This document shows positions 48,222-64,000 of a stretch of DNA of 64,000 bases, in pieces. The DNA is taken from contig NC_012997.1 of NCBI RefSeq assembly GCF_000023025.1, positions 1,658,764 through 1,722,763 on the forward strand, read 5' to 3'. Both the position numbers and the translations under genes were made by a program. Origin of the DNA: Teredinibacter turnerae T7901. GTDB taxonomy: Bacteria > Pseudomonadota > Gammaproteobacteria > Pseudomonadales > Cellvibrionaceae. The first letter of the stretch is position 1. The number at the start of each line of letters is the position of its first letter. The notes beneath the pieces were generated by a model. That model saw nothing but the letters and a program-made list of their open reading frames with translations, had not been told where the DNA came from and did not search any database.

Positions 48222-49715
48222 CTAGTTGGATTGAACCAATTCTGTAACCAATTCGAGTTCAGACACCATCTGATCGATCTGGTAGTGAGGTACAAGGTGA
48301 ATCACACAGAGGTATTGGCCCGGTTTTTCCGGATGCTCTCGCACCGTTACATTAGCTTCACGCAGCGGGTAGCGAGCCTGTTGTTCCCACTCCAGGTCGT
48401 GACGCCCGGTGGTGTAACGGCGGAGCCAAGTGCCGAGGTAAACCTGGCATTCCTCAGCGGACAAAAACGACCCGACTTTATCGCGTATCATCACCTTGAT
48501 GTAGTGTGCTACGCGAGAGGCGCATAGCACGTGTTGCAGCATAGTAGAAAGCTTGTAGTTAATTGCCGTCGTAGAGTTAGACGCGCGATTAACAGATTGC
48601 ACTGACTGGTTACTGTAAAACGCCGCAAAAGGTGTGTTGTAACAATGACAGAGAGGGACCATTCCCAACTCACTAATTTCTCGCTCCAGCGCATCTGTAA
48701 TAAGAATGTCGGTTGCGGGTTTGAATGCGACACCGGTTTTGTCCGTGTCGAAAGAGTCCATCGGCAAATTGGTAACAAGTCCACCACCCAGCAAATCGCG
48801 AGGTACGCCTCGGATGTGACCAAACCAGCCCACGGCCGCAAATTCCCGAATCAGTATGCCGCCGAAGGCGTAGGCGGCATTTCCCCATAGGTAGGCTTCC
48901 TGATTGGCGTTGCCCGGTAGTTCGCGAAATCTCAGGCCTTTGTAGCTGCCCGTTGTTTTGCGATAGGGTGTCCGCATAAGAATACGCGGCAAAGTCAAGC
49001 CAACGAATCTGGCTTCAGGCTTTTCTCTGAGGCTACGCCAGCGGATATATTCAGACTGCGAGAATACATCGCCAAGTCGGCTCCCCTGACCCAGCTCTGT
49101 AAAATTATTGCTGCCGAGGAGCTGAGGCGAGGCACCTAGGATAAATGGCGTGAAGGCCGCGGAGCCAATGTCGGCAAGGCCGTCTAGAGTGGATATATCA
49201 TCGGGGTGCTGTGCATTCGGTTTATGGTGAATATCATAATCACCAATAATCACGCCGTAAGGTTCACCGCCGGGTGTGCCATATTCTTCACTGTAGATTT
49301 TTTGATAGAGCTGGCTTTGGTCGAAATCCAGTGCGCGTTCAATATCCTTCGTGACCTCTAGCCAATTCGCATTTAGCAGTTTGATTTTTAGATTTCGTAC
49401 ACCTTCGGCCTGTACCACGAGATACCATAACCCACGCCAGGACGCTTCGATTTTCTGAAAGTTTGGGTGATGCAAGATCGCGTTGAGCTGTGATATCACC
49501 AGTTCATCAATAGACGCAATAATTTGATCAATTTCGCAGTACAACTCTTCTGCGGTTGCGGGCGGCTCAATGAAATAGGTATTTACAAAAGAGACGAGGG
49601 AGTCGAACGAAGCTGGTGAGGCCAAAAATTTATCGAGGGTGGTTAACGTGCCTACCACTGACGTAGTCGTCGCGGTTCTATCGGCTGATTCCTCTGCAAA
49701 ATCTGACGTTAACAC
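48222..49715 (-). CDS. tssC2: Second TssC-type sheath protein (ImpD-like paralogue)
   Basis: A 497-residue TssC-family protein, paralogous to the neighbouring tssC. Shared family segments are LNAILHHPNFQKIEASWRGLWYLV, DFDQSQLYQKIYSEEYGTPGGEPYGVIIGDYDI, ARFVGLTLPRILMRTPYR and SRVAHYIKVMIRDKVGSFLSAEECQVYLGTWLRRY. In the Rhizobium imp locus two such genes (impC and impD) are adjacent. The start is probably GTG 49715 (AGGAAAGG upstream at long spacing). It is separated from tssC by 438 bases but is tightly linked to tssE. Whether it enters the sheath or has another role is unknown. Confidence 0.9.
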   Translation of the reverse strand: MLTSDFAEESADRTATTTSVVGTLTTLDKFLASPASFDSLVSFVNTYFIEPPATAEELYCEIDQIIASIDELVISQLNAILHHPNFQKIEASWRGLWYLVVQAEGVRNLKIKLLNANWLEVTKDIERALDFDQSQLYQKIYSEEYGTPGGEPYGVIIGDYDIHHKPNAQHPDDISTLDGLADIGSAAFTPFILGASPQLLGSNNFTELGQGSRLGDVFSQSEYIRWRSLREKPEARFVGLTLPRILMRTPYRKTTGSYKGLRFRELPGNANQEAYLWGNAAYAFGGILIREFAAVGWFGHIRGVPRDLLGGGLVTNLPMDSFDTDKTGVAFKPATDILITDALEREISELGMVPLCHCYNTPFAAFYSNQSVQSVNRASNSTTAINYKLSTMLQHVLCASRVAHYIKVMIRDKVGSFLSAEECQVYLGTWLRRYTTGRHDLEWEQQARYPLREANVTVREHPEKPGQYLCVIHLVPHYQIDQMVSELELVTELVQSN

Positions 49716-50153: not shown

Positions 50154-51650
50154 TTAACCCGCTTTAGGAATATTGGCGACGAGCCTCAGCGACGCGGTCA
50201 GTTCCTCCACTTGGAGCCAGGGTCGCAAATAGGCTACTGCGTTAAATACTCCTGGCTGACCTGGGACTTCTTTCACTTCCACGCGGGCTTCTGCTAAAGG
50301 ATACTTCGCTTTCATTTCTGCGCTAGCGCCCGGTGTTCCATTCACATATTGACTCAGCCATTTGTTTAGCCAGCGCTCGGCTTCATCGGCTTCCATAAAG
50401 GAGCCAATTTTGTCCCGTGCCATAACTTTGAGAAAGTGGGCGATACGGGAAGTGGCCATGATGTAGGGCAGGCGCGCAGATATGGCAGAATTGGCAGAGG
50501 CATCAGGGTCGTCGAATTTCTTCGGCTTTTGCGTAGTTTGCGCGCCGAAAAATACCGCAAAATCTGTGTTCTTGTAATGACACAGCGGCAGAAAACCAAG
50601 TTTACTCAGTTCTGCTTCACGGCGATCTGTGATGCCTATTTCGGTTGGGCATTTCTGATCGGTATCGCCATCATCACTTACGAAAACGTGACTGGGTAGA
50701 CCTTCTACCTTACCGCCACCCTCAGCACCTCGAATACTGGTGCACCAACCATAACTGGCGAAAGCTTTGCTCAGTGTTGCACCTAACGTATAAGCCGCGT
50801 TCATCCAGCAATAGGAATCGTGCTCATTCTCGAGATGCTTACCGTCGGCGGTAACGTTACCTTCTTCGAAATTGAACTCTTCTACCGGTTTTGTGGCTGC
50901 GCCATACGGCAGGCGTGCGAGCGTGCGGGGCATGGTCAGGGTTACAAAGCGGGAGTCTTCACTTTCGCGGAAACTCCGCCATTGAATGTACTCCGCAGAT
51001 TCGAATATTTTTTCCAGGTCGCGAGGTTTAGAGAGCTCTGTAAATGATTCGAAACCAAACATTTGTGGTGCTGCTGATGAAACAAATGGGCAGAAACCAG
51101 ATGCGGCGATATTCGACATTTTGGTGAGCAGAGAAATATCATCGGGGTGAGATGAAAAGTCGTAGTCGCCGACGAGAGCGGCGTAGGGTTCTCCACCCGC
51201 AGTGCCGAATTCGCTTTCGTACACTTTCTTGAATATCTGGCTTTGGTCGAATTCGACCGCCTTTTCCAAGTCGCGCTTGAGCTCTTTTTTGCTGATATTC
51301 ATCACTCGCAGTTTAAGGTGCGAGCTTGTTTCAGAATTCATCACCAGGTACTGCAAGCCACGCCATGAACCTTCCAGCGTTTGAAACTTTTCATGGTGCA
51401 TGATGGCCCGCAACTGATTAGACATTGCCTCGTCGATCGCGTTAATCGCAGCGTTGATTGTTACGCTGAGGTTTTTGTCCCACTTTACAGTGCCTTTCGT
51501 TGCTTCACGAGTGAGTGTCTTCAACAGCTCTTCGGTTTCATCGCGTGGCGTTTGTTTGGTTGCGTCAATCGCTTGTTCGAGGAAGCTCAGGTCCGTGGCA
51601 ACTTCTGTTGCACTCGCCTGGCCTTCCATTAATTCTTCATTATTCGCCAT
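50154..51650 (-). CDS. tssC: T6SS sheath large subunit TssC
   Basis: Forms the contractile sheath with TssB around the Hcp tube. The 498-residue protein contains [79 protein letters not shown] and [36 protein letters not shown]. The listed GTG 51659 gives three extra residues, but ATG 51650 behind GAAGG is the likely start. It overlaps the end of tssB by 11 bases. It is the canonical TssC, adjacent to tssB. Confidence 0.96.
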
Positions 51651-52161
51651 CTTTTTCACCTTCGTTTTCTACACCCAACTCACCGGAGAGATTTGCCAGG
51701 GCTTCGGTATTGCTCAGAACTTCTTCCAGCACGTTTTCCAGTTGTTCGGAGCGGTCCGCTTTGGTGAGCAGATCACGCAGCTTGTTTCTGGTTTCCATCA
51801 GCTTCCGCAGCGGTTCCACCTGGTCGACGAGCTTTTGTGGCTCAAAATCTTCCATGCTGTTAAAGCTCAGATTTACAGCCATCTCAGAGCCGTCATTGTC
51901 TACGGTGTTTTCTACCTTCATGTTTAGCTGCGGATTGATTTTCGCCATCAGCTCGTTGAAGTTATCGCGGTCGACCTGTGCGAACTTGCGGTCTTTTAAT
52001 GGTTTTTTCTCATCGGCGTTGTCACCCGAATAATCTCCCATTACGCCCATTACAAAGGGAATTTCTTTTTCCATTACCTGGCCATTGGTTTCGAGGTCGT
52101 AGGTAATGTGTACGCGGGGTTTGCGGACTCTTCCGAGTTTATCTTGCATACTTTCTGACAT
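51640..52161 (-). CDS. tssB: T6SS sheath small subunit TssB
   Basis: Small subunit of the contractile sheath. The 173-residue protein begins [46 protein letters not shown], the standard TssB N-terminus, followed by [22 protein letters not shown] and [34 protein letters not shown]. It is 29 bases after tssA. Only one tssB is present although there are two tssC genes. Confidence 0.97.
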
Positions 52162-53918: not shown

Positions 53919-55556
53919 ATGGTATTAAAAGTGGAAGTGTTGCAGTCGCCGCAGGGAGTTGCCATGGCTGAGGCGAGCAAGTCCATTTCTGAGCAGGGTG
54001 GCTCATTAGGGAGAGGCGAAAATAATACCTGGGTATTAGATGACCCAGAGCGTTTTCTTTCGAGCCGACATTGCGAATTCGACTGTGACGGCAGCACGTA
54101 CTATCTTACCGACGTTAGCACTAACGGTACTTTTGTGAATGGCTCTCCAGATCCACTCGGCCGAGGTGTCCGCGTCGCTTTGTCTGGCGGAGATACCATC
54201 GAGATAGGCGAGTACCAGTTTCGCGTTGCTATAGAAGGCGATACAGCCCATTCAATGCCACTCGAACCCGTGGCTGGAAGCCCTGTACTTGATCCTTTTG
54301 CCTCGCCTTCATCTCCGTTCGATCAGCCGGTGTCATCTATACCTGCAGATTTGGACGATCCACTCGCCGAATTTGGGAGTGGTTTGAGTTCAGGTGGCGG
54401 ACTCTTGCCCGATAGCGATTTGGCATTAAATGAGACAGATCCTCTGGCAGCGCTGGATAAAGCCGCAGCTGATCCGTTTACTGCGTCGTCTGATCCGTTT
54501 GGTATTTCGGAAACCAACGACTTCGGCACAGAGAGTTTTCCATATGGCCAGAACACCTACAGCGACAATAGTGACCCCCTCAGCGGTTCGTTTGATGCAC
54601 CCAAAAGCAGTGGAGCCGGCCTAATACCCGAAGATTGGGAAGACGACCTTCTCGGGGCAGAGCCTTTGCCCACGTTCGACGAGCCTCCCAAGCCGGCGGC
54701 GCCTCCTTTAGTTACCGCCGCTGACGAGCTGGTTGCAAAGCGGCCCAACCCGAGACCAACCCCCAGGTCGCGGCCCGCTGAAAACAATGCGCGTCGTGAT
54801 TTGTCGCAGCCCAACCGTGTTATACGCAAAGCTTCGCGTCCCGCGACAACAGAAAAGCGCACTCCGCTGGATCGTTCATCCGCAAATGACACTGTCGAGC
54901 AAGCTGCTGTTCCCAAGAGCAAGCCCAGCCCAAGGCACGCGAGCACATCCGAAGTTGCAATTAACTCAGCATTGTTTGAGTCAATGGGGCTGGATGTCAG
55001 CCAGCTGTCGCAGGAAGAGCAGCAGGAGGTAGCTTGCGCAGTTGGTGAACTCATGCCAGTAGTCGTAGAGGGGATGATGCGGGTGTTGCGTTCACGTGCG
55101 AGTATCAAAAACGAATTCCGCATGAGCGTTACTACCATGCAACCGATAGAAAACAACCCGCTAAAGTTTTCCGCCGACAAAGGCGAGGCACTCGACATTA
55201 TGTTTGTACGAAAAAGCAAGGCTTACAAGGCTCCGGTTGCCGCTTTTTCCGAAGGTTTCGATGCTATTGCCGAGCACCAGGTTGCCATCATCGCTGGCAT
55301 ACGTGCTGCTTTCACAAAAATGGTGGAACATTTTGACCCTGCGGCTTTAGAGCAGCAATTCGACAAGCAAAACAAAGGCGTGAATATTCCAGGAATGCAG
55401 AAATCTCGCTACTGGAACAGCTACACGGCCTATTTTCAAGGGTTTATGGATAACATGGAACAGTCCTTTCAAAACTTGTTTGGGGACGAGTTTGTACGCG
55501 CATACGAAGATCAGTTATTTAAGCTGATGACAGCGAGAAATATATCCGAAAAGTAA
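53919..55556 (+). CDS. tagH (fha): T6SS forkhead-associated protein TagH (Fha/ImpI)
   Basis: FHA-domain regulator that binds phosphothreonine and controls T6SS assembly. The 545-residue protein has an N-terminal FHA domain (GRGENN at about 31-36, SSRHCEF at 48-54, STNGTFVNG at 67-75). A long linker (about 110-330) has six DP[F/L] motifs (125, 147, 174, 185, 192, 219) and many Ser/Pro residues. The C-terminal T6SS-specific domain (about 345-535) includes NSALFESMGLDVSQLSQEEQQEVACAVGELMPVVVEGMMRVLRSRASIKNEFRMS. It is the first gene of the plus-strand operon and probably works with ppkA and pppA. Confidence 0.95.
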   Translation: MVLKVEVLQSPQGVAMAEASKSISEQGGSLGRGENNTWVLDDPERFLSSRHCEFDCDGSTYYLTDVSTNGTFVNGSPDPLGRGVRVALSGGDTIEIGEYQFRVAIEGDTAHSMPLEPVAGSPVLDPFASPSSPFDQPVSSIPADLDDPLAEFGSGLSSGGGLLPDSDLALNETDPLAALDKAAADPFTASSDPFGISETNDFGTESFPYGQNTYSDNSDPLSGSFDAPKSSGAGLIPEDWEDDLLGAEPLPTFDEPPKPAAPPLVTAADELVAKRPNPRPTPRSRPAENNARRDLSQPNRVIRKASRPATTEKRTPLDRSSANDTVEQAAVPKSKPSPRHASTSEVAINSALFESMGLDVSQLSQEEQQEVACAVGELMPVVVEGMMRVLRSRASIKNEFRMSVTTMQPIENNPLKFSADKGEALDIMFVRKSKAYKAPVAAFSEGFDAIAEHQVAIIAGIRAAFTKMVEHFDPAALEQQFDKQNKGVNIPGMQKSRYWNSYTAYFQGFMDNMEQSFQNLFGDEFVRAYEDQLFKLMTARNISEK

Positions 55557-57438: not shown

Positions 57439-58347
57439 ATGTCTAACAACGATCGAACGGTTTTCAGGCAGCCAACTCCCGGCGGCGAACGGGGCGGTGA
57501 TCGAACCGTTATGCGTCCTCGCAGCTCGGCAGCCAGGCCGTCATCACGGGGTTCGCAGAGCGCTGCACCGCAACGTCATCAGCCGGCAACAGTCGCCAGC
57601 GATCCACACGCGGCGCAATTCGCAAATGGCCGGGGCCTCAACACCTTGGTGAGTCTGGCGGCAACGCTCCTTGCAGTGTATGAAAAAACCCGTCATTCAA
57701 TGACGCATGCGGATACCGCCGGATTGCATAAGCGTCTGTGTAATGAGATCCGCAATTTTGAGGTTAACGCTCGCGATGCGGGTATTCGTCAGGAGGTCGT
57801 TATTTCCGCGCGTTACGTGCTTTGCTCAATTCTGGACGAGGCGGTTCTCAATACACCCTGGGGCAGCGAAAGCGCTTGGGCACAGCGATCTCTGTTGTCG
57901 GTTTTTCACAATGAAACCTCAGGCGGAGAAAAGTTTTTCTTAATTTTGGATCGTGTGCGTCAGTCGCCTTCAGAAAATCTCGAGATGTTGGAGTTATTTT
58001 ATGTCTGCTTAAGTATGGGGTTTGAGGGCAAGTTTCGGTTGATGTCGCGCGGAAGAGACGGAATAGAGGAAATTCGCGACGACCTATTCTCAACGATTCG
58101 ACGATATCGCGGTGAATATGAGCGAGATCTCTCGACACATTGGCAAGGGCTGGGGCGTACCAAAAAAACCCTGGCAGAGTATCTCCCCGTATGGGTCGCA
58201 GTTGTTGTCGTGGGTGCAATATTGCTGTTCGGCTTCTCTGGTTTCCGTTATTGGCTTTATGAGCGCGCGACCCCCGTGGTTGAGCAGCTCAATGTCATCG
58301 CATTGCCGCCAGAATCCGCCGAGCCTGAGAATGGAACTTTACGTTAA
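57439..58347 (+). CDS. tssL: T6SS inner membrane protein TssL (DotU family)
   Basis: Inner membrane protein that binds TssM and TssK. The 302-residue protein has an unusual basic, disordered N-terminus with two copies of DRTV followed by a hydrophobic residue and Arg (Thr7 and Thr23). The DotU domain follows (NTLVSLAATLLAVYEK, ARYVLCSILDEAVLNTPWGSESAWAQRSLLSVFHNETSGGEKFF, LELFYVCLSMGFEGKFRL, YRGEYERDLSTHWQG). A single transmembrane segment is near 250-266 (LPVWVAVVVVGAILLFG). No OmpA-like domain is fused. Agrobacterium TssL is phosphorylated on an N-terminal threonine by PpkA and then binds Fha (established), so the DRTV motifs are candidate sites. Confidence 0.95.
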   Translation: MSNNDRTVFRQPTPGGERGGDRTVMRPRSSAARPSSRGSQSAAPQRHQPATVASDPHAAQFANGRGLNTLVSLAATLLAVYEKTRHSMTHADTAGLHKRLCNEIRNFEVNARDAGIRQEVVISARYVLCSILDEAVLNTPWGSESAWAQRSLLSVFHNETSGGEKFFLILDRVRQSPSENLEMLELFYVCLSMGFEGKFRLMSRGRDGIEEIRDDLFSTIRRYRGEYERDLSTHWQGLGRTKKTLAEYLPVWVAVVVVGAILLFGFSGFRYWLYERATPVVEQLNVIALPPESAEPENGTLR

Positions 58348-58401
58348 TCCTGAGCTGGACCCGCGTTAATCATTGCCATAGGGACATCGACAGTAAATTT
58401 T

Positions 58402-61400
58402 ATGAAAAAACTTAAAGCATTTTTCACCAATCCGCACGTTATTATCGGGTTGGCGTTTATTTTTGTGGGATTACTTATTTGGTTTGCCGGGCCGCACACC
58501 AAATTCGGTGACGACAATACTGCGCCACTTGCCAGTACAACGTCGCGTCTGATCTGTCTGATAGTGTTATTGGCGATTTGGGGAGCCAACAACTTGCGCT
58601 CCCAGTGGCTGACGCGAAAAAATAACGACAGTCTTGTTGACGATATTACAAAAAATCAAAAAGAAGCCCCCAAGGGGGTATCCCCTCAAGTCACGGAAGA
58701 AGTTCAGCAAATCAATGCCCGTTTCACCGAAGCGTTAACCACACTAAAAAAGCTGAAATTTGGCGGCGGTGGCAAAAAAGCGCTGTACGAATTGCCTTGG
58801 TACATCATCGTGGGTCCGCCAGGTTCGGGTAAAACCACCGCCCTGGTAAACTCCGGGCTGGATTTTCCGTTAGCCGAAAAGTTTGGCAAGGGCGCGTTGC
58901 AGGGGGTAGGCGGTACCCGAAATTGCGACTGGTGGTTCACCAATGATGCGGTGCTTATTGATACCGCAGGACGATACACAACGCAGGACAGTCATCGCGT
59001 TGCAGACGGAGGCGCCTGGGAAGGCTTTCTAAGTCTGCTGAAGAAAAATCGCCGTCGCCGCCCTATTAATGGTGCCGTCGTTGCGATTAGCCTTCAGGAT
59101 CTGCTGATGCAGAGTGAGGACGAGCGCGCACAAAATGCAAAAGTCATTCGTGCACGTCTTGATGAACTGATGGAAAAGCTTCAAATCCGATTTCCTATTT
59201 ATCTGATGTTCACTAAAACCGATCTGGTATCTGGTTTTTCAGAGTTTTTCGAAGACCTTAATCGGGACGATAGAGATCAAGTGTGGGGGTTATCGCTTCC
59301 CAACGCCCCAAAGGCGAACCAAAGCCCGGATTTTAATTTTTTAGAGGAACAGATGGGGAGCCTGATTAGTCGGCTCTATGATCGCGTGCTCTGGCGTATG
59401 CATCAGGAGCGAGACCCAAAACGCCGGGGGGCTATTTATGGGTTCCCGCAACAAATGGAGAATCTGCAGGCAATTGTTACAGGTTTTGTACAGCAGGCGT
59501 TCGCAGAAAATCGTTATCAGTTTCAGCCGTATTTGCGCGGCGTTTATTTTTCCAGCGGTACCCAAGACGGAACACCCATAGATCGATTAATGTCATCCGT
59601 TTCCGCTAACTTCGGCTTCCCTCGTGACGTGGCTCATTTGGCAACACAGCAGGGTAAAAGCTTTTTCCTTTCCCGCTTGTTTCTGGATGTGATTTTTCCG
59701 GAATCGGAATTGGTTGGCTCCAATGTTCGCTACGAGCGGTTCATTCGCTGGGCTCAGCGCGCAACCTACGCGGCCTTGGCTCTCGTTACCCTCGGTACAG
59801 GGTTGATTTGGAGCGGTGCACTCACTCGGCAAACAATGTCAATGGGGGAAGTTCAGCAGCATGTGGACGAATACACCCAAGAGCGCGAAAAAGTCAAAGA
59901 TTGGAACAAGGATTTACGTGTTGTACTGCCCCCGCTGAATGCGCTATTTCAGGCAAGCCGCGTTTACGATCAAGAGGCGCATCCCTGGTTGAGCGGAATG
60001 GGTTTGTATGATAATCGGGTAGATGCGCAAGCGGATGCCGCCTATAAAGAACAGCTGAAGGCGTTGCTGCTGCCTCGTTTAATTGATGCACTTGAGCGGT
60101 CGCTTAAGCAGGGCTACGAAGGCGGCGATCTTTATAATACATTTCGTATTTACATGATGTTTGGCAAGGTAGATCGTTTAGAACCCACTTTGGTCGAGCA
60201 GTGGTTTAATGACGAGTGGGAAGTTGCCTTGGAAGGGGAAGCAACTCGCCGACAGGAATTGAAACTGCATTTGGAAAACCTGTTGGCACTGTCTCTCGCA
60301 CCTTTAGAATTGAACCCTCGGATAGTACGGGATACGCGGACGACGTTGCTGCGTGTTCCTGTTGCGCAACGGATATATCAACGGGTTAAAAATAACGCCG
60401 AATACAATTATCCCGTGGATATGCTCAATGAGTTTGGTGAGTCAGTTCGTGAAAATTTCCAGTTGGAGGGCAAAGATCTCTCTATGTCTGCCCTCTATAC
60501 CATAGATACCTACGAACGTTTGGATCTATCTGAGGGCGCGTCGTTAATTGGCGATGTGGAAAACGAACGCTGGTTGCTGGCAGACGATAAGGACGAGAGG
60601 GTGGATTTTGTTGGCGAAGATCTTGAAGAAATCAGTGAAGATGTTAAAGAGCTTTATCTAGCAGATTACGCAGCAAACTGGTCGCGTTTACTGCGAAACT
60701 TAGAGGTGAAAAACTACACCAGTATCAATCAGCTAAACGACGGGCTCATGGTTTTTTCTGACGCTATTTATTCGCCGTTAAAAGCCATTTTGCAGGTCGG
60801 TAAAGAGCATACGCAATTGACTATGCCGCTGGTCCAGGACGTAACTGCGCAAGAAGATAGTAATAGTAAAAGTCGACTGTCTCGCGCTAAGCGGCTCGCA
60901 GCTGCAAATATCGAAACTACCAGGGTCGACAAACAGTTTAGCGAACTCCACGCGATGTTACGTGAGTCGCGCAGCGGTTTGGCGCCGGTGGATGGTGTGA
61001 TGCAAAAGCTGCAGCAATTGCAGGAATTTGTCGCTGAGATTTCTATGTCTCCCGATCCCGGTAAAAAGTCGTTCGACGTTGCGAAAGCACGATTCCAAGG
61101 CGGCGGCGGAAATCCGATTACCTCGCTGCGCAGCTACGCGCAAACACAACCTGAGCCAATAGAGCGCTGGCTAACAAGCCTGGCGGATGAAACATGGCGA
61201 CTGGTGTTAGCCAACGCGCGTCAGTACGTGAACGTGGAATGGCGGGCGCAGGTTTACAACCCTTATCGGCAAGGTTTGTCCGGGCGTTACCCGTTGGCAG
61301 GTAACAGTCGCGATGAAATGGCAATGTACGATTTCTCCGCTTTTTTTAAACCCTCTGGAACATTGGATGTGTTTTATCAACAGTATATTTCGCCGTTTGT

Positions 61401-61935
61401 CGATTCGCGAAATAATCTGGCAAATCGCGTTGTTGATAAATACAGTATTGGGTTTAATCGCACCACCATGAACCAAATACAAAAAGGTTTAACGATTAAA
61501 AACATTTTGTTCAGGGCGAACCCGGAGGCTCCCAGTATCCAGTTGGAATTGCGGCCCTACAAAATGGACGAGCGTCACGCGCGTTTTACCCTTGAACTTG
61601 GAGATGAACGGTTGGTATACAATCACGGCCCCAAATTCTGGAAAGATGTTTCCTGGTCGGGTACCGGCGATAACAACCGAATTCGGGTTATTTTCCAGGA
61701 CTTGAACGATAGAACGGTTGACCAGTCATACGGTGGCCCCTGGTCCTGGTTCCGTCTGCTAGATGCATCCAGCGTCACTCAGACAAACCAGGCCAACGTT
61801 TATAACGTAGCGTTTAAAGTGGTTGCTGCCAACGGGGAAGAGCACAGCATTTTATATCAGGCGAAAACCAAAAGTATTCACAACTCGATGGATCGCTCCT
61901 GGTTGACATCGCTCAGTTTGGCGGAGTCACTTTAA
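58402..61935 (+). CDS. tssM: T6SS membrane complex protein TssM (IcmF family)
   Basis: Spans the inner membrane and periplasm and binds TssJ. The 1177-residue protein has two N-terminal membrane segments (about 13-30 and 49-62), a cytoplasmic NTPase-like domain with Walker A GPPGSGKT at 138-145 and DTAGRYTTQDS, the IcmF-related region (FPQQMENLQAIVTGFVQQAF, FRPYLRGVYFSSGTQDGTPIDRLM-like), a third membrane segment (about 452-470, YAALALVTLGTGLIWSGAL), and a long periplasmic part. The final LLDASSVTQTNQANVYNVAFKV resembles the TssJ-binding end. It shares one base with the tagF start. Confidence 0.95.
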   Translation: MKKLKAFFTNPHVIIGLAFIFVGLLIWFAGPHTKFGDDNTAPLASTTSRLICLIVLLAIWGANNLRSQWLTRKNNDSLVDDITKNQKEAPKGVSPQVTEEVQQINARFTEALTTLKKLKFGGGGKKALYELPWYIIVGPPGSGKTTALVNSGLDFPLAEKFGKGALQGVGGTRNCDWWFTNDAVLIDTAGRYTTQDSHRVADGGAWEGFLSLLKKNRRRRPINGAVVAISLQDLLMQSEDERAQNAKVIRARLDELMEKLQIRFPIYLMFTKTDLVSGFSEFFEDLNRDDRDQVWGLSLPNAPKANQSPDFNFLEEQMGSLISRLYDRVLWRMHQERDPKRRGAIYGFPQQMENLQAIVTGFVQQAFAENRYQFQPYLRGVYFSSGTQDGTPIDRLMSSVSANFGFPRDVAHLATQQGKSFFLSRLFLDVIFPESELVGSNVRYERFIRWAQRATYAALALVTLGTGLIWSGALTRQTMSMGEVQQHVDEYTQEREKVKDWNKDLRVVLPPLNALFQASRVYDQEAHPWLSGMGLYDNRVDAQADAAYKEQLKALLLPRLIDALERSLKQGYEGGDLYNTFRIYMMFGKVDRLEPTLVEQWFNDEWEVALEGEATRRQELKLHLENLLALSLAPLELNPRIVRDTRTTLLRVPVAQRIYQRVKNNAEYNYPVDMLNEFGESVRENFQLEGKDLSMSALYTIDTYERLDLSEGASLIGDVENERWLLADDKDERVDFVGEDLEEISEDVKELYLADYAANWSRLLRNLEVKNYTSINQLNDGLMVFSDAIYSPLKAILQVGKEHTQLTMPLVQDVTAQEDSNSKSRLSRAKRLAAANIETTRVDKQFSELHAMLRESRSGLAPVDGVMQKLQQLQEFVAEISMSPDPGKKSFDVAKARFQGGGGNPITSLRSYAQTQPEPIERWLTSLADETWRLVLANARQYVNVEWRAQVYNPYRQGLSGRYPLAGNSRDEMAMYDFSAFFKPSGTLDVFYQQYISPFVDSRNNLANRVVDKYSIGFNRTTMNQIQKGLTIKNILFRANPEAPSIQLELRPYKMDERHARFTLELGDERLVYNHGPKFWKDVSWSGTGDNNRIRVIFQDLNDRTVDQSYGGPWSWFRLLDASSVTQTNQANVYNVAFKVVAANGEEHSILYQAKTKSIHNSMDRSWLTSLSLAESL

Positions 61936-62699
61936 TGTCTGTCGGTGCAGCGGGTTTTTTTGGCAAGCTACCCACGCACGGTGATTTTATATCGCGGGAT
62001 CTTCCCTCCCATTTTATCGATATTTGGGACAACTGGTTGCAGCTGTTCGTATCCACCACACAGGGCCAGCTCGGCGAGGAGTGGTTGGACATCTATCTGA
62101 CGAGCCCGATTTGGCGATTTGTTTTCAGTGAGGGTGTTGTCGATGAACACGTGTGGGCAGGCGTTATGTTGCCAAGCGTGGATAAAGTCGGACGCTACTT
62201 TCCGTTTTCCATCGTCGCGCCGCTGGCTGGTTCGGCAAATGGTTTGGAGCTGCTCACGGAACACCAGGCATGGTTTGAAGAAATAGAGGATATCGCTCTG
62301 CAAGCCTTAGATGGGCAGTACGACCTGGACAGCCTGCTCGATGCAATAAATATGGTCGCGGATATCCAGTCTTCGGCCTATGAAAAAGATCCCTCGGTGC
62401 TGGGTGGTGGGGCTCCCACATCGCCTTTACTGGTTCGAACGGCATCGCCGACTCAGGGGCTTCAGGCGGCGATGCCTGCGCTCTTGGATGCGGCACTTAA
62501 AAACAGTTACGCGAGCTACAGTGCTTGGGCGACATTGGGCTCAGATTATGTCGAGCCATGTATCTTTGTTGCCCGTGGCCTGCCGACCACCAGCGGTGCG
62601 AGCAGCTTGCTTGAAGGGCGATGGGACGAGTGGGGGTGGCCCGAGCCATACCTGCTTCTGACGCAGCCGGATCAACCGGAAGATTCCGAGAATGAGTGA
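61935..62699 (+). CDS. tagF: T6SS-associated protein TagF (ImpM)
   Basis: TagF acts as a post-translational repressor of T6SS in Pseudomonas, through the Fha protein. The 254-residue protein has the signature GFFGKLPTHGDFISRDLPSHFIDIWDNWLQLFVSTTQ, then YLTSPIWRFVFSEGVVDEHVWAGVMLPSVDKVGRYFPFSIVAPL. It lacks a fused PppA domain, unlike some homologues. Its ATG overlaps the tssM stop (TAATG), and its end overlaps the pppA start by eight bases. Confidence 0.93.
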   Translation: MSVGAAGFFGKLPTHGDFISRDLPSHFIDIWDNWLQLFVSTTQGQLGEEWLDIYLTSPIWRFVFSEGVVDEHVWAGVMLPSVDKVGRYFPFSIVAPLAGSANGLELLTEHQAWFEEIEDIALQALDGQYDLDSLLDAINMVADIQSSAYEKDPSVLGGGAPTSPLLVRTASPTQGLQAAMPALLDAALKNSYASYSAWATLGSDYVEPCIFVARGLPTTSGASSLLEGRWDEWGWPEPYLLLTQPDQPEDSENE

Positions 62700-63441
62700 T
62701 ACAGAGTTTCGCCCCATAGATTGGCGCAGCGCGTGCGAGACCGATGTGGGGACCGTAAGAGAGGTCAACGAGGATGCCATCTTGTTACGCCCAGATATTC
62801 ATTTATGGGCAGTGGCCGATGGTATGGGTGGCCATTCTGTTGGTGATATTGCCTCGCAAACTGTGGTCGCAGCGCTGGAGTCCATTGACGGTGCCGATTT
62901 ACTAAGTGAATTTGTTGATCAGGTCGACGATGCGCTGATAAAAGCGAACAGTGAGATCATTGCATATTCCGAAAATTACCTGAACAGTGCCCCGATGGGT
63001 ACAACGGTAGTTTCCTTAATTACCCGTGGCCGCGTTGGCGTTTGCCTCTGGGTTGGGGATTCAAGGTTATACCGGTTACGTGGCGGTGAGCTGTCGCAGT
63101 TAAGTCGTGATCACAGCCAGGTGGAAGAGCTTGTTCAAATGGGGGTGATCACGCCTGAACAGGCGATTGATCACCCGGATAGTCATGTTATAACGCGGGC
63201 TGTGGGCGGTGAAACGGACGTCTATGTGGATATAAATCTCTTCAGCGTCCAAATCGGCGACACGTTTTTACTGTGCAGCGATGGCCTATATAACGCTGTA
63301 GAAATCGAAGATATCGCCGATTGTCTGGCGGTGCGCGAGCCTGATGACGCCAGTGCTGAACTAATGCGGCGGGCACTGGGTAATCATGCCAAAGATAATG
63401 TTTCACTGGTTGTGGTTCGAGGTGAGGCGGGGAACTGTTAA
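62692..63441 (+). CDS. pppA: T6SS serine/threonine phosphatase PppA (PP2C family)
   Basis: PP2C phosphatase that reverses PpkA-dependent phosphorylation. The 249-residue protein shows the metal-binding motifs: REVNEDAI, ADGMGGHSVGDIASQ, GTTVVSLI, GDSRLYRLRGGELSQLSRDHS, CSDGLYNAVE and KDNVSLVVV. It overlaps tagF by eight bases and precedes ppkA by six. Confidence 0.94.
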   Translation: MSDTEFRPIDWRSACETDVGTVREVNEDAILLRPDIHLWAVADGMGGHSVGDIASQTVVAALESIDGADLLSEFVDQVDDALIKANSEIIAYSENYLNSAPMGTTVVSLITRGRVGVCLWVGDSRLYRLRGGELSQLSRDHSQVEELVQMGVITPEQAIDHPDSHVITRAVGGETDVYVDINLFSVQIGDTFLLCSDGLYNAVEIEDIADCLAVREPDDASAELMRRALGNHAKDNVSLVVVRGEAGNC

Positions 63442-63447
63442 CAGGTT

Positions 63448-64000
63448 ATGGATAATCAAGACAATAAGGACAGCAAAACCCCGGCAACGAGCCCGGGGAA
63501 AAAACCTTTGGAAGCGCCATCCGACGCGACGGTAATAAAGCGAGCTGAGCCAAGCCGTGCGCCCGCACAGGAGGGCGACGATAAAACCCGTATTGCTAAA
63601 AATGTGCGCCAACAGAAGCACATTAATGCCGCGCTGCAAAAGAAAACGACTCCACAGGCGCCTCCGGCGGATAAGACGCGTTTACAGTCGCGCCGGCCTG
63701 CGGTGAATATTGAACCTAAAAAAGCAGCACCGAGTGATAAAACCAGTATCCGCTCCTCCGGCCCGCAGGCGCAGGGCGATAAAACACAATTTAATCCGCG
63801 TGCTCGTGCTACGGGTCAAATGCAGGCCAAACCAGCCCGTTCGCGAGCAGAAGGTGGACGCGCATTGGAGCCGGGCCAGCCTGCAAAAAAGGCATCTGGC
63901 GGTGCGGTACCTACACTAAAAAACCGGTTTATCTTTGAAGAAATGCTTGGTGCTGGCGGCATGGGGATGGTGTATAAAGCCAAAGACATGCTTAAAGTCG
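63448..64000 (+). CDS. ppkA: T6SS serine/threonine protein kinase PpkA, N-terminal part (cut by window end)
   Basis: Eukaryotic-type kinase of the threonine phosphorylation pathway of T6SS. Only about 184 residues are in the window. Residues 1-157 are a disordered, basic and Pro/Gln-rich leader that holds five motifs of the form D-(K/A)-T-x-hydrophobic, at Thr28, Thr47, Thr77, Thr99 and Thr113. The kinase domain begins at NRFIFEEMLGAGGMGMVYKAKD with the glycine-rich loop at 168-176. The catalytic part lies beyond the edge. The long N-terminal leader before the kinase domain is unusual. ATG 63448 is 6 bases after pppA. Identity as a T6SS kinase rests on context as well as motifs. Confidence 0.9.
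   Translation, partial: MDNQDNKDSKTPATSPGKKPLEAPSDATVIKRAEPSRAPAQEGDDKTRIAKNVRQQKHINAALQKKTTPQAPPADKTRLQSRRPAVNIEPKKAAPSDKTSIRSSGPQAQGDKTQFNPRARATGQMQAKPARSRAEGGRALEPGQPAKKASGGAVPTLKNRFIFEEMLGAGGMGMVYKAKDMLKV

Follow-up and report, generated by a model that had tools for sequence, protein, structure and literature searches.

The operon for a type VI secretion system (T6SS) of Teredinibacter turnerae T7901 encodes a threonine motif, D-[K/R]-T-x-hydrophobic, that is common to TssL and the kinase PpkA. We propose, with a probability of roughly 0.55, that PpkA phosphorylates itself and TssL on this one signature, which would be read by the FHA domain of TagH/Fha, giving a recruitment relay from the kinase to TssL. 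The analysed window comprises 64,000 nucleotides (contig NC_012997.1, positions 1,658,764 to 1,722,763) of the 5.19-Mb, single-contig genome, and its end falls within the operon. The tail of TssL carries two copies of the motif and the leader of PpkA carries five, with all seven threonines lying exactly where the initial annotation of this DNA had placed them. The proteins and sites concerned are as follows (positions within the window):

53919–55556, + strand: tagH/fha; FHA domain (PF00498, residues 29-97) plus T6SS_FHA_C (PF20232); presumed phosphothreonine reader
55131–55133, + strand: TagH Thr405, in EFRMSVTTMQPIENNPLK, aligned to the Pseudomonas Fha threonine segment; putative Thr362 equivalent
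57439–58347, + strand: tssL, DotU/IcmH family, 302 amino acids, low-complexity N-terminal tail before the DotU domain (PF09850, E 8.6e-71, residues 70-272)
57451–57465, + strand: TssL motif 1, DRTVF, Thr7; the pentapeptide of the PpkA activation loop, which the near clade retains as D[KR]TVF
57499–57513, + strand: TssL motif 2, DRTVM, Thr23; this copy is retained in the sister clade as well, usually as DRT[VI][MIL]
63448–63999, + strand: start of ppkA, an open reading frame (ORF) of 597 amino acids; leader, then kinase domain from residue 163 (PF00069, E 2.9e-39)
63523–63537, + strand: PpkA leader motif DATVI, Thr28
63580–63594, + strand: PpkA leader motif DKTRI, Thr47
63670–63684, + strand: PpkA leader motif DKTRL, Thr77
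63736–63750, + strand: PpkA leader motif DKTSI, Thr99
63778–63792, + strand: PpkA leader motif DKTQF, Thr113

Four of the five leader copies thus read D-K-T and one reads D-A-T. The ppkA ORF extends past the window to genome position 1724004, and the complete protein of 597 residues consists of a leader of about 156 residues (157 as cut for counting), the kinase domain, and a probable membrane-spanning segment around residue 438. The kinase domain holds HSDFKPGN and DFG.

Two forms of the motif, D[KRA]T.phi and D.T.phi (phi being I, L, V, M or F), were counted together with their serine versions, D[KRA]S.phi and D.S.phi. When the residues of the T. turnerae leader are shuffled 2000 times, D[KRA]T.phi occurs 0.021 times on average, compared with the five copies observed (p 0.0005, the lowest value that this test can give). 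Of 97 genomes from the same genus, family and order, 46 (our own included) yielded a TssL, and 40 loci were fetched; the kinase is present in the fetched stretch of 30 of them, which together with our own locus yields 31 leaders with 4178 residues. These leaders come from related loci and are hence non-independent, and they start at the last ATG before the first motif, a rule that can shorten leaders and raise motif density. They contain 93 copies of D[KRA]T.phi, compared with 1.0 expected from shuffles keeping the composition, and no D[KRA]S.phi; likewise, D.T.phi outnumbers D.S.phi by 108 to 2, although serine (360 residues) is more frequent than threonine (317). Individually, 29 of the 31 leaders are significant (p < 0.05), the other two (L072 and L075) being short, with 48 and 31 residues.

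Between leaders of the same genus, the D, T, and hydrophobic positions of our own motifs are kept in 35 of 42 aligned cells (13/15, 10/12, and 12/15), compared with 153 of 401 in the rest of the leader (66/138, 50/134, and 37/129, respectively). These data support the view that TssL and PpkA have one threonine-specific motif in common, which is kept while the surrounding residues diverge. Copies are gained and lost, the leader of L039 having seven and ours five, and their number tracks leader length (rho 0.61). Neighbouring leader motifs lie at most 12 residues apart in only 9 of 78 pairs, compared with 26% expected for random placement at least 5 apart; because the motifs are spread out, several FHA domains could bind at once. 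The leader array also occurs outside our own family: in three loci from another class of the same phylum (L165, L171, and L175), TssL has the motif (DKTVFG, DRTVIG) and the leader of the kinase contains between one and four D.T.phi.

At the DNA level, a pattern for D-x-T-V-hydrophobic-R gave five matches in the genome and eight for the reversed control, i.e., no genome-wide enrichment. The TssL pair, spaced 48 bases apart, accounts for two of these five matches; none of the remaining three is in frame in a sense ORF of at least 120 amino acids as far as these were read, one of them being antisense to a hisA-like ORF. The motif-like DRTVD of TssM (Thr1105) and DRTLI of TssK (Thr338) were set aside, because the serine versions, 23 for each protein over 41 loci, show no threonine preference; D[KRA]T.phi was counted there 3 times in TssM (7.9 expected) and 8 times in TssK (2.0 expected, an excess).

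A sixth copy in the kinase is located in its activation loop, EDRTVFDAG, beyond the window, where DRTVF at Thr331 is identical to the pentapeptide around TssL Thr7. The activation loop is a usual autophosphorylation site in Hanks-type kinases. Its Thr, Phe(+2), Asp(+3), and Ala(+4) are invariant in 11 of 11 aligned diverse PpkA kinase domains, and the activation loops of the four other Hanks-type kinases that Pfam found in the genome show no such motif by eye. The residue matching between TssL and the loop, which was judged by eye only, fits two lineages, one with TVF and the other with TQF. In the latter, Pseudomonas-like lineage, TssL begins ...DDRTQFMP in L101, L103, and L109 and ...NDRTQFMP in L105, and the kinase loop is DDRTQFTQAG in all four, meaning that TssL and loop have the hexapeptide DDRTQF in common in the first three loci and DRTQF in the fourth. 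Among 80 named Pseudomonas loci, which are mutually close (91-100% in the query region) and do not include P. aeruginosa, the TssL tail contains DRTQF in 78 and ERTQF in one, with none found in one, and all 79 readable kinase loops read DRTQFT. Among the Pseudomonas H1-like kinases that were inspected, none carries a motif in its leader.

Variants of this arrangement were also observed. Eight loci (L087-L091, L110, L116, and L117, from genera g70, presumably Pseudomonas, and g77) have a kinase loop DFGLG... without the motif and a TssL with D- or E-x-T-V-hydrophobic. In L052 and L053, the second TssL motif has serine (DRSSM) and the first keeps DRTVF, which hints that the first site may carry the function there.

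Many Proteobacteria retain the motif in the TssL tail, and it is more frequent where a kinase is nearby. A DotU-domain profile made without the tail located TssL in 104 of 396 genomes of the phylum; of 120 places selected from these matches, 100 were retrieved as further loci. Kinases were called with a home-made profile in stretches of up to about 20 kb, and "without kinase" means that none was called in the fetched stretch. Among 140 loci besides our own, 55 of the 88 with the kinase have D.T.phi in the tail of TssL, versus 12 of the 52 without it; for D.S.phi, the counts are 6 of 88 and 3 of 52, respectively. The tails of the 89 kinase-bearing loci (our own included) contain 83 D.T.phi, compared with 4.1 expected and a maximum of 11 in 500 shuffles. 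One locus, L055, was scored motif-negative here and in the co-variation count described below owing to the start rule alone. Five loci of another class, presumably Alphaproteobacteria (L137, L141, and L143-L145), have LPTI(I/V)EL instead, which resembles DLPpTVVEI of Agrobacterium.

Fifteen genomes were re-searched for the kinase, 12 of which carry D.T.phi in TssL. Eight of these 12 are order-level relatives with a TssL motif and no kinase in the fetched stretch, and all eight have a PpkA-type kinase elsewhere (338-464 bits), with D.T.phi in the leader of seven. Weaker kinases (117-139 bits) lie on the TssL contig, 20-32 kb away, in L096, L097, and L135, and L160 has one of 215 bits on another contig. 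In 17 T6SS genomes that are motif-negative at the fetched TssL locus, the best kinase match is at most 141 bits; the genome-wide profile, being based on near relatives, gives distant PpkA-like kinases low scores, so that a low score does not equal proven absence. When 16 loci are recoded as having the kinase elsewhere, D.T.phi is found in 67 of 105 loci with and 1 of 36 without it (141 loci, our own included), a recoding that covers only the re-searched genomes; the conclusion rests on the uncorrected 55/88 versus 12/52.

The presumed reader of the signature was examined as well. As the initial annotation had stated, the FHA domain of TagH is intact (PF00498, E 1.2e-14, followed by T6SS_FHA_C), with the blocks GR (31-32), SxxH (48-51), and NG (69-70), named after PMC4238996. 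The solved FHA sequences closest to it are GarA and TB39.8/FhaA. TagH Thr405, in VTTMQPIENNPLK, lies in the putative counterpart of the conserved Thr362 segment that marks the threonine phosphorylation pathway (TPP) of the P. aeruginosa type, and TssL Thr7 and Thr23 have near the N-terminus the T-x-hydrophobic core that marks the Agrobacterium type. According to the genome paper of 2009, T. turnerae has a T6SS cluster that includes these regulators, and Thr362 is conserved in its Fha (PMC2699552); judging from the alignment, the Thr405 segment before NNPLK (QTMIRP in Pseudomonas, one threonine in the two proteins) probably corresponds to the Thr362 segment. With kinase states as recoded above, a Thr362-type segment with T-x-phi is present in 75 of 78 kinase-bearing loci versus 8 of 15 others (93 loci with the segment); in eight further loci with the domain, no Thr362-type segment was found.

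Fha itself also carries the motif in 12 related loci, as D[KR]T(T/E/Q)(F/I) located 10-23 residues past the FHA domain, and TssL has one motif in these loci. None of 37 related loci combines two TssL motifs with one post-FHA TagH motif, and the sum of the two is 2 in 29 loci, 1 in five, 0 in two, and 3 in one; this sum includes a thirteenth Fha-motif locus, L072, which has a weaker match further on, and it was read from the tail of L055 without the start rule. We take this as a pattern and not as a tested rule, because the tree shows no more than 3 and 4 changes, with 2 supported pairs. Whole FHA linkers show no threonine bias (23 D.T.phi and 18 D.S.phi in 105 FHA proteins); our statement is limited to the copy shortly past the FHA domain in the 12 loci.

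From these patterns, we infer phosphorylation at each site, FHA binding and an order of events. PpkA would autophosphorylate its activation-loop Thr331 and its own leader threonines, in cis or in trans; the phosphorylated leader would thereby become multivalent, and TagH/Fha would dock on it through its FHA domain. The kinase would also phosphorylate TssL Thr7 and Thr23, which are near-copies of its own activation-loop site; Fha, pre-concentrated at the active kinase, would then bind phospho-TssL and assembly would begin, with PppA reversing the phosphorylation. The D-[K/R]-T-x-hydrophobic motif would thus be a single phosphothreonine signature reused within one pathway, in which the TssL tail mimics the autophosphorylation site of the kinase and one FHA pocket reads both "kinase on" and "machine licensed". 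The phosphosite DLPpTVVEI of Agrobacterium TssL and the putative Thr362 segment of Fha both have a T-x-hydrophobic core, which supports such a shared signature.

Several observations weigh against this relay. Thirty-three of the 88 kinase-bearing loci have no D.T.phi in TssL, so the reverse rule fails; the eight kinases located elsewhere serve as a check and not as strong independent evidence, because these genomes are close relatives and the result could be expected; and 3 of the 17 motif-negative controls (G230, G300, and G320) have a kinase 21-24 kb from TssL, at 57-68 bits. On the trees, the four to six supported independent pairs are mostly uninformative, and the association of kinase and motif may reflect no more than shared ancestry. 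In the sister clade of our own family, a third lineage, TssL and loop differ at +1 in four of the seven loci whose loop has T-x-F. The threonine-specificity could also be accounted for by the kinase alone. Regarding the published work, the affinity of Fha7-309 for the pT14 8-mer of A. tumefaciens TssL is weak (printed as 2.15 mM), FHA domains are said to recognise chiefly pT+3, a position at which these motifs vary, and Lin et al. describe T14 as not conserved in distant TssL (all PMC3953482). Moreover, a review reports that PpkA autophosphorylates on a conserved serine and not a threonine (PMC10482370); the same review also cites TssL phosphorylation in V. alginolyticus.

Alternatively, the motif may reflect the consensus of the kinase and nothing else, with the leader sites being autophosphorylation by-products or autoinhibitory pseudo-substrates that the FHA domain ignores. 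Such an explanation agrees with the presence of the same motif in the activation loop, with the T-x-hydrophobic core of the Fha segment in 75 of 78 kinase-bearing loci, and with the weak affinity of Fha for the TssL phosphopeptide. However, an array kept at one to nine copies, gained and lost in otherwise diverged leaders, suggests selection for a reader, and FhaA, which is among the solved FHA proteins closest to TagH, docks on PknB at the juxtamembrane region when this is phosphorylated (PMC12077195). We consider this alternative unlikely, but one to be taken seriously.

The initial annotation had suggested that Fha could be titrated, the phosphorylated leader acting as a sink that keeps it off TssL until enough TssL is phosphorylated, which would set a firing threshold. 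In 23 of 28 related loci, the leader does have more sites than TssL, the spacing of the leader motifs would allow several FHA domains to bind together, and killing by A. citrulli is reduced on PpkA induction (PMC12607579). Nevertheless, motif numbers, mostly 1 or 2 in TssL and 1 to 9 in the leader of these loci, show no clear co-variation (rho 0.37, p 0.053, n = 28) and thus lend the threshold no support. A sink also predicts less assembly when the kinase is active, but in A. citrulli normal Fha foci depend on active PpkA, and TssL foci are stimulated when PpkA is expressed (PMC12607579). Given the activation-loop copy and the Fha copy of the sister clade, a relay or scaffold is favoured over simple titration, which we regard as quite improbable. 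The earlier interpretation is therefore supported in part, by the common threonine motif, its greater frequency near the kinase, and its T-x-hydrophobic core like that of the Agrobacterium phosphosite, and is not supported as regards the titration threshold.

A further explanation is that D-R-T-V-(M/F)-R-P is a short linear motif that docks another T6SS part without any phosphate, as might be suggested by the P and G residues that often trail the TssL motif (e.g., R-P-x-P-G or I-P-T-P-G). This is very unlikely, since threonine is hardly ever swapped for serine in the leaders and the motif also occurs in the kinase leader and loop; in addition, the TssL proteins of L076 and L077, from our own family, lack the motif, and the best kinase match in these genomes, with 141 bits, falls well short of the PpkA-type scores. 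Chance or low-complexity bias in disordered tails, which do look low in complexity by eye, is refuted by the excess over the leader shuffles (93 vs 1.0) and the individual significance of 29 of the 31 leaders.

Returning to the relay, a bolder version would be that the threonines serving as FHA ligands outside the kinase, in TssL or in Fha, are limited to a small and constant number, such that Fha is either handed from the active kinase to the machine or self-locked through one pocket, in a rewirable relay whose substrate evolved as a mimic of the loop; this version is tentative, and we would not expect it to hold in full. To our knowledge, both the ligand of the Fha FHA domain and the way in which kinase activation becomes localised assembly are unsettled in most T6SSs. 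A shared threonine signature would allow specific sites in TssL, PpkA, and Fha to be predicted for many organisms, Pseudomonas H1-like systems among them, and an N-terminal multisite array would be a further possible way for a bacterial kinase to recruit an FHA adaptor.

The operon comprises tagH/fha, tssJ, tssK, tssL, tssM, tagF, pppA, and ppkA; TagH, TssL, PpkA, PppA, and TagF were identified by Pfam, and TssJ, TssK, and TssM by eye. It contains the TPP gene set, i.e., a PpkA-type Ser/Thr kinase (PF00069), a PppA PP2C phosphatase (PF13672/PF00481), and an FHA protein (PF00498 with PF20232). Two further genes are:

61935–62699, + strand: tagF (PF09867, E 1.6e-49)
62692–63441, + strand: pppA, PP2C-type phosphatase (PF13672, E 1.8e-13)

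Directly past the window, the PpkA ORF overlaps by 50 bases an ORF in another frame with an FGE-sulfatase domain (genome positions 1723955-1724956, corresponding to 11956-12957 of L002, the own-genome stretch that contains the full kinase). In the near relatives L038-L055, a single ORF matches both PpkA and the FGE-sulfatase domain; the split in the T. turnerae genome may be a frameshift, a sequencing error, or recoding. After these two ORFs come ExbB-like, two ExbD-like, and TonB-like ORFs (L002:13229-15877, by eye), which are possibly linked to the T6SS or chance neighbours. Two tandem ORFs resembling the sheath protein TssC were seen by eye at window positions 48222-49715 and 50154-51659 on the - strand, and two more ORFs of the genome (L005 and L007) seem by eye to be fusions, with a PP2C-like phosphatase at the N-terminus and a Hanks-type kinase domain after it.

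The TPP itself is known; what may be new here is the multisite leader array and the activation-loop mimicry. No description of the array or of the identity between loop and TssL was found in the open-access literature as far as accessible, which misses most subscription journals, and this is weak evidence of novelty. In the Agrobacterium TPP (PpkA, TagF-PppA, and Fha; PMC3953482, PMC5995506), as in our proposal, a threonine near the TssL N-terminus, there within a T-V-V core, is read by the FHA domain of Fha: A. tumefaciens TssL shows PpkA-dependent pT14 near its N-terminus, which Fha binds (PMC3953482). Its TssL, however, has one site (T14, DLPpTVVEI) and not D-K/R-T, its TagF and PppA are fused, and a leader array is not reported in the accessible text of these papers.

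The TssW-PpkA-Fha axis of Acidovorax citrulli (PMC12607579) is similar in that kinase activity promotes the interaction between PpkA and Fha: Fha foci require active PpkA and not the phosphosite Fha T640, kinase-dead PpkA binds less Fha, and PpkA and Fha form condensates. Its substrate, in contrast, is Fha T640, and the accessible part of that paper contains no statement on leader motifs. The TagQRST-PpkA-PppA-Fha1 pathway of the P. aeruginosa H1-T6SS (PMC10482370, PMC5995506) shares with T. turnerae the kinase, the phosphatase, and Fha, whose Thr362 is conserved in T. turnerae (PMC2699552), but its published substrate is Fha1, and the accessible text of that literature makes no mention of TssL phosphorylation. 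Related Pseudomonas loci have DRTQF in both TssL and the kinase loop, as described above.

In mycobacteria, GarA docks on the phosphorylated PknB loop, and we know of no motif that the mycobacterial kinases share with a machine part. FHA adaptors are recruited there by autophosphorylated loop or juxtamembrane residues, as when FhaA binds the juxtamembrane region of PknB (PMC12077195) or MupFHA binds phosphorylated PknQ (PMC4238996). Unlike in T. turnerae, these are not T6SS components, and the PknB segment joins the kinase domain to the membrane instead of lying N-terminal to the kinase domain. Finally, in the Rv1747-PknF condensates (PMC9312465), the FHA domains belong to an ABC transporter and the kinase has no array, but FHA domains with a disordered linker likewise bring about phosphorylation-dependent clustering.

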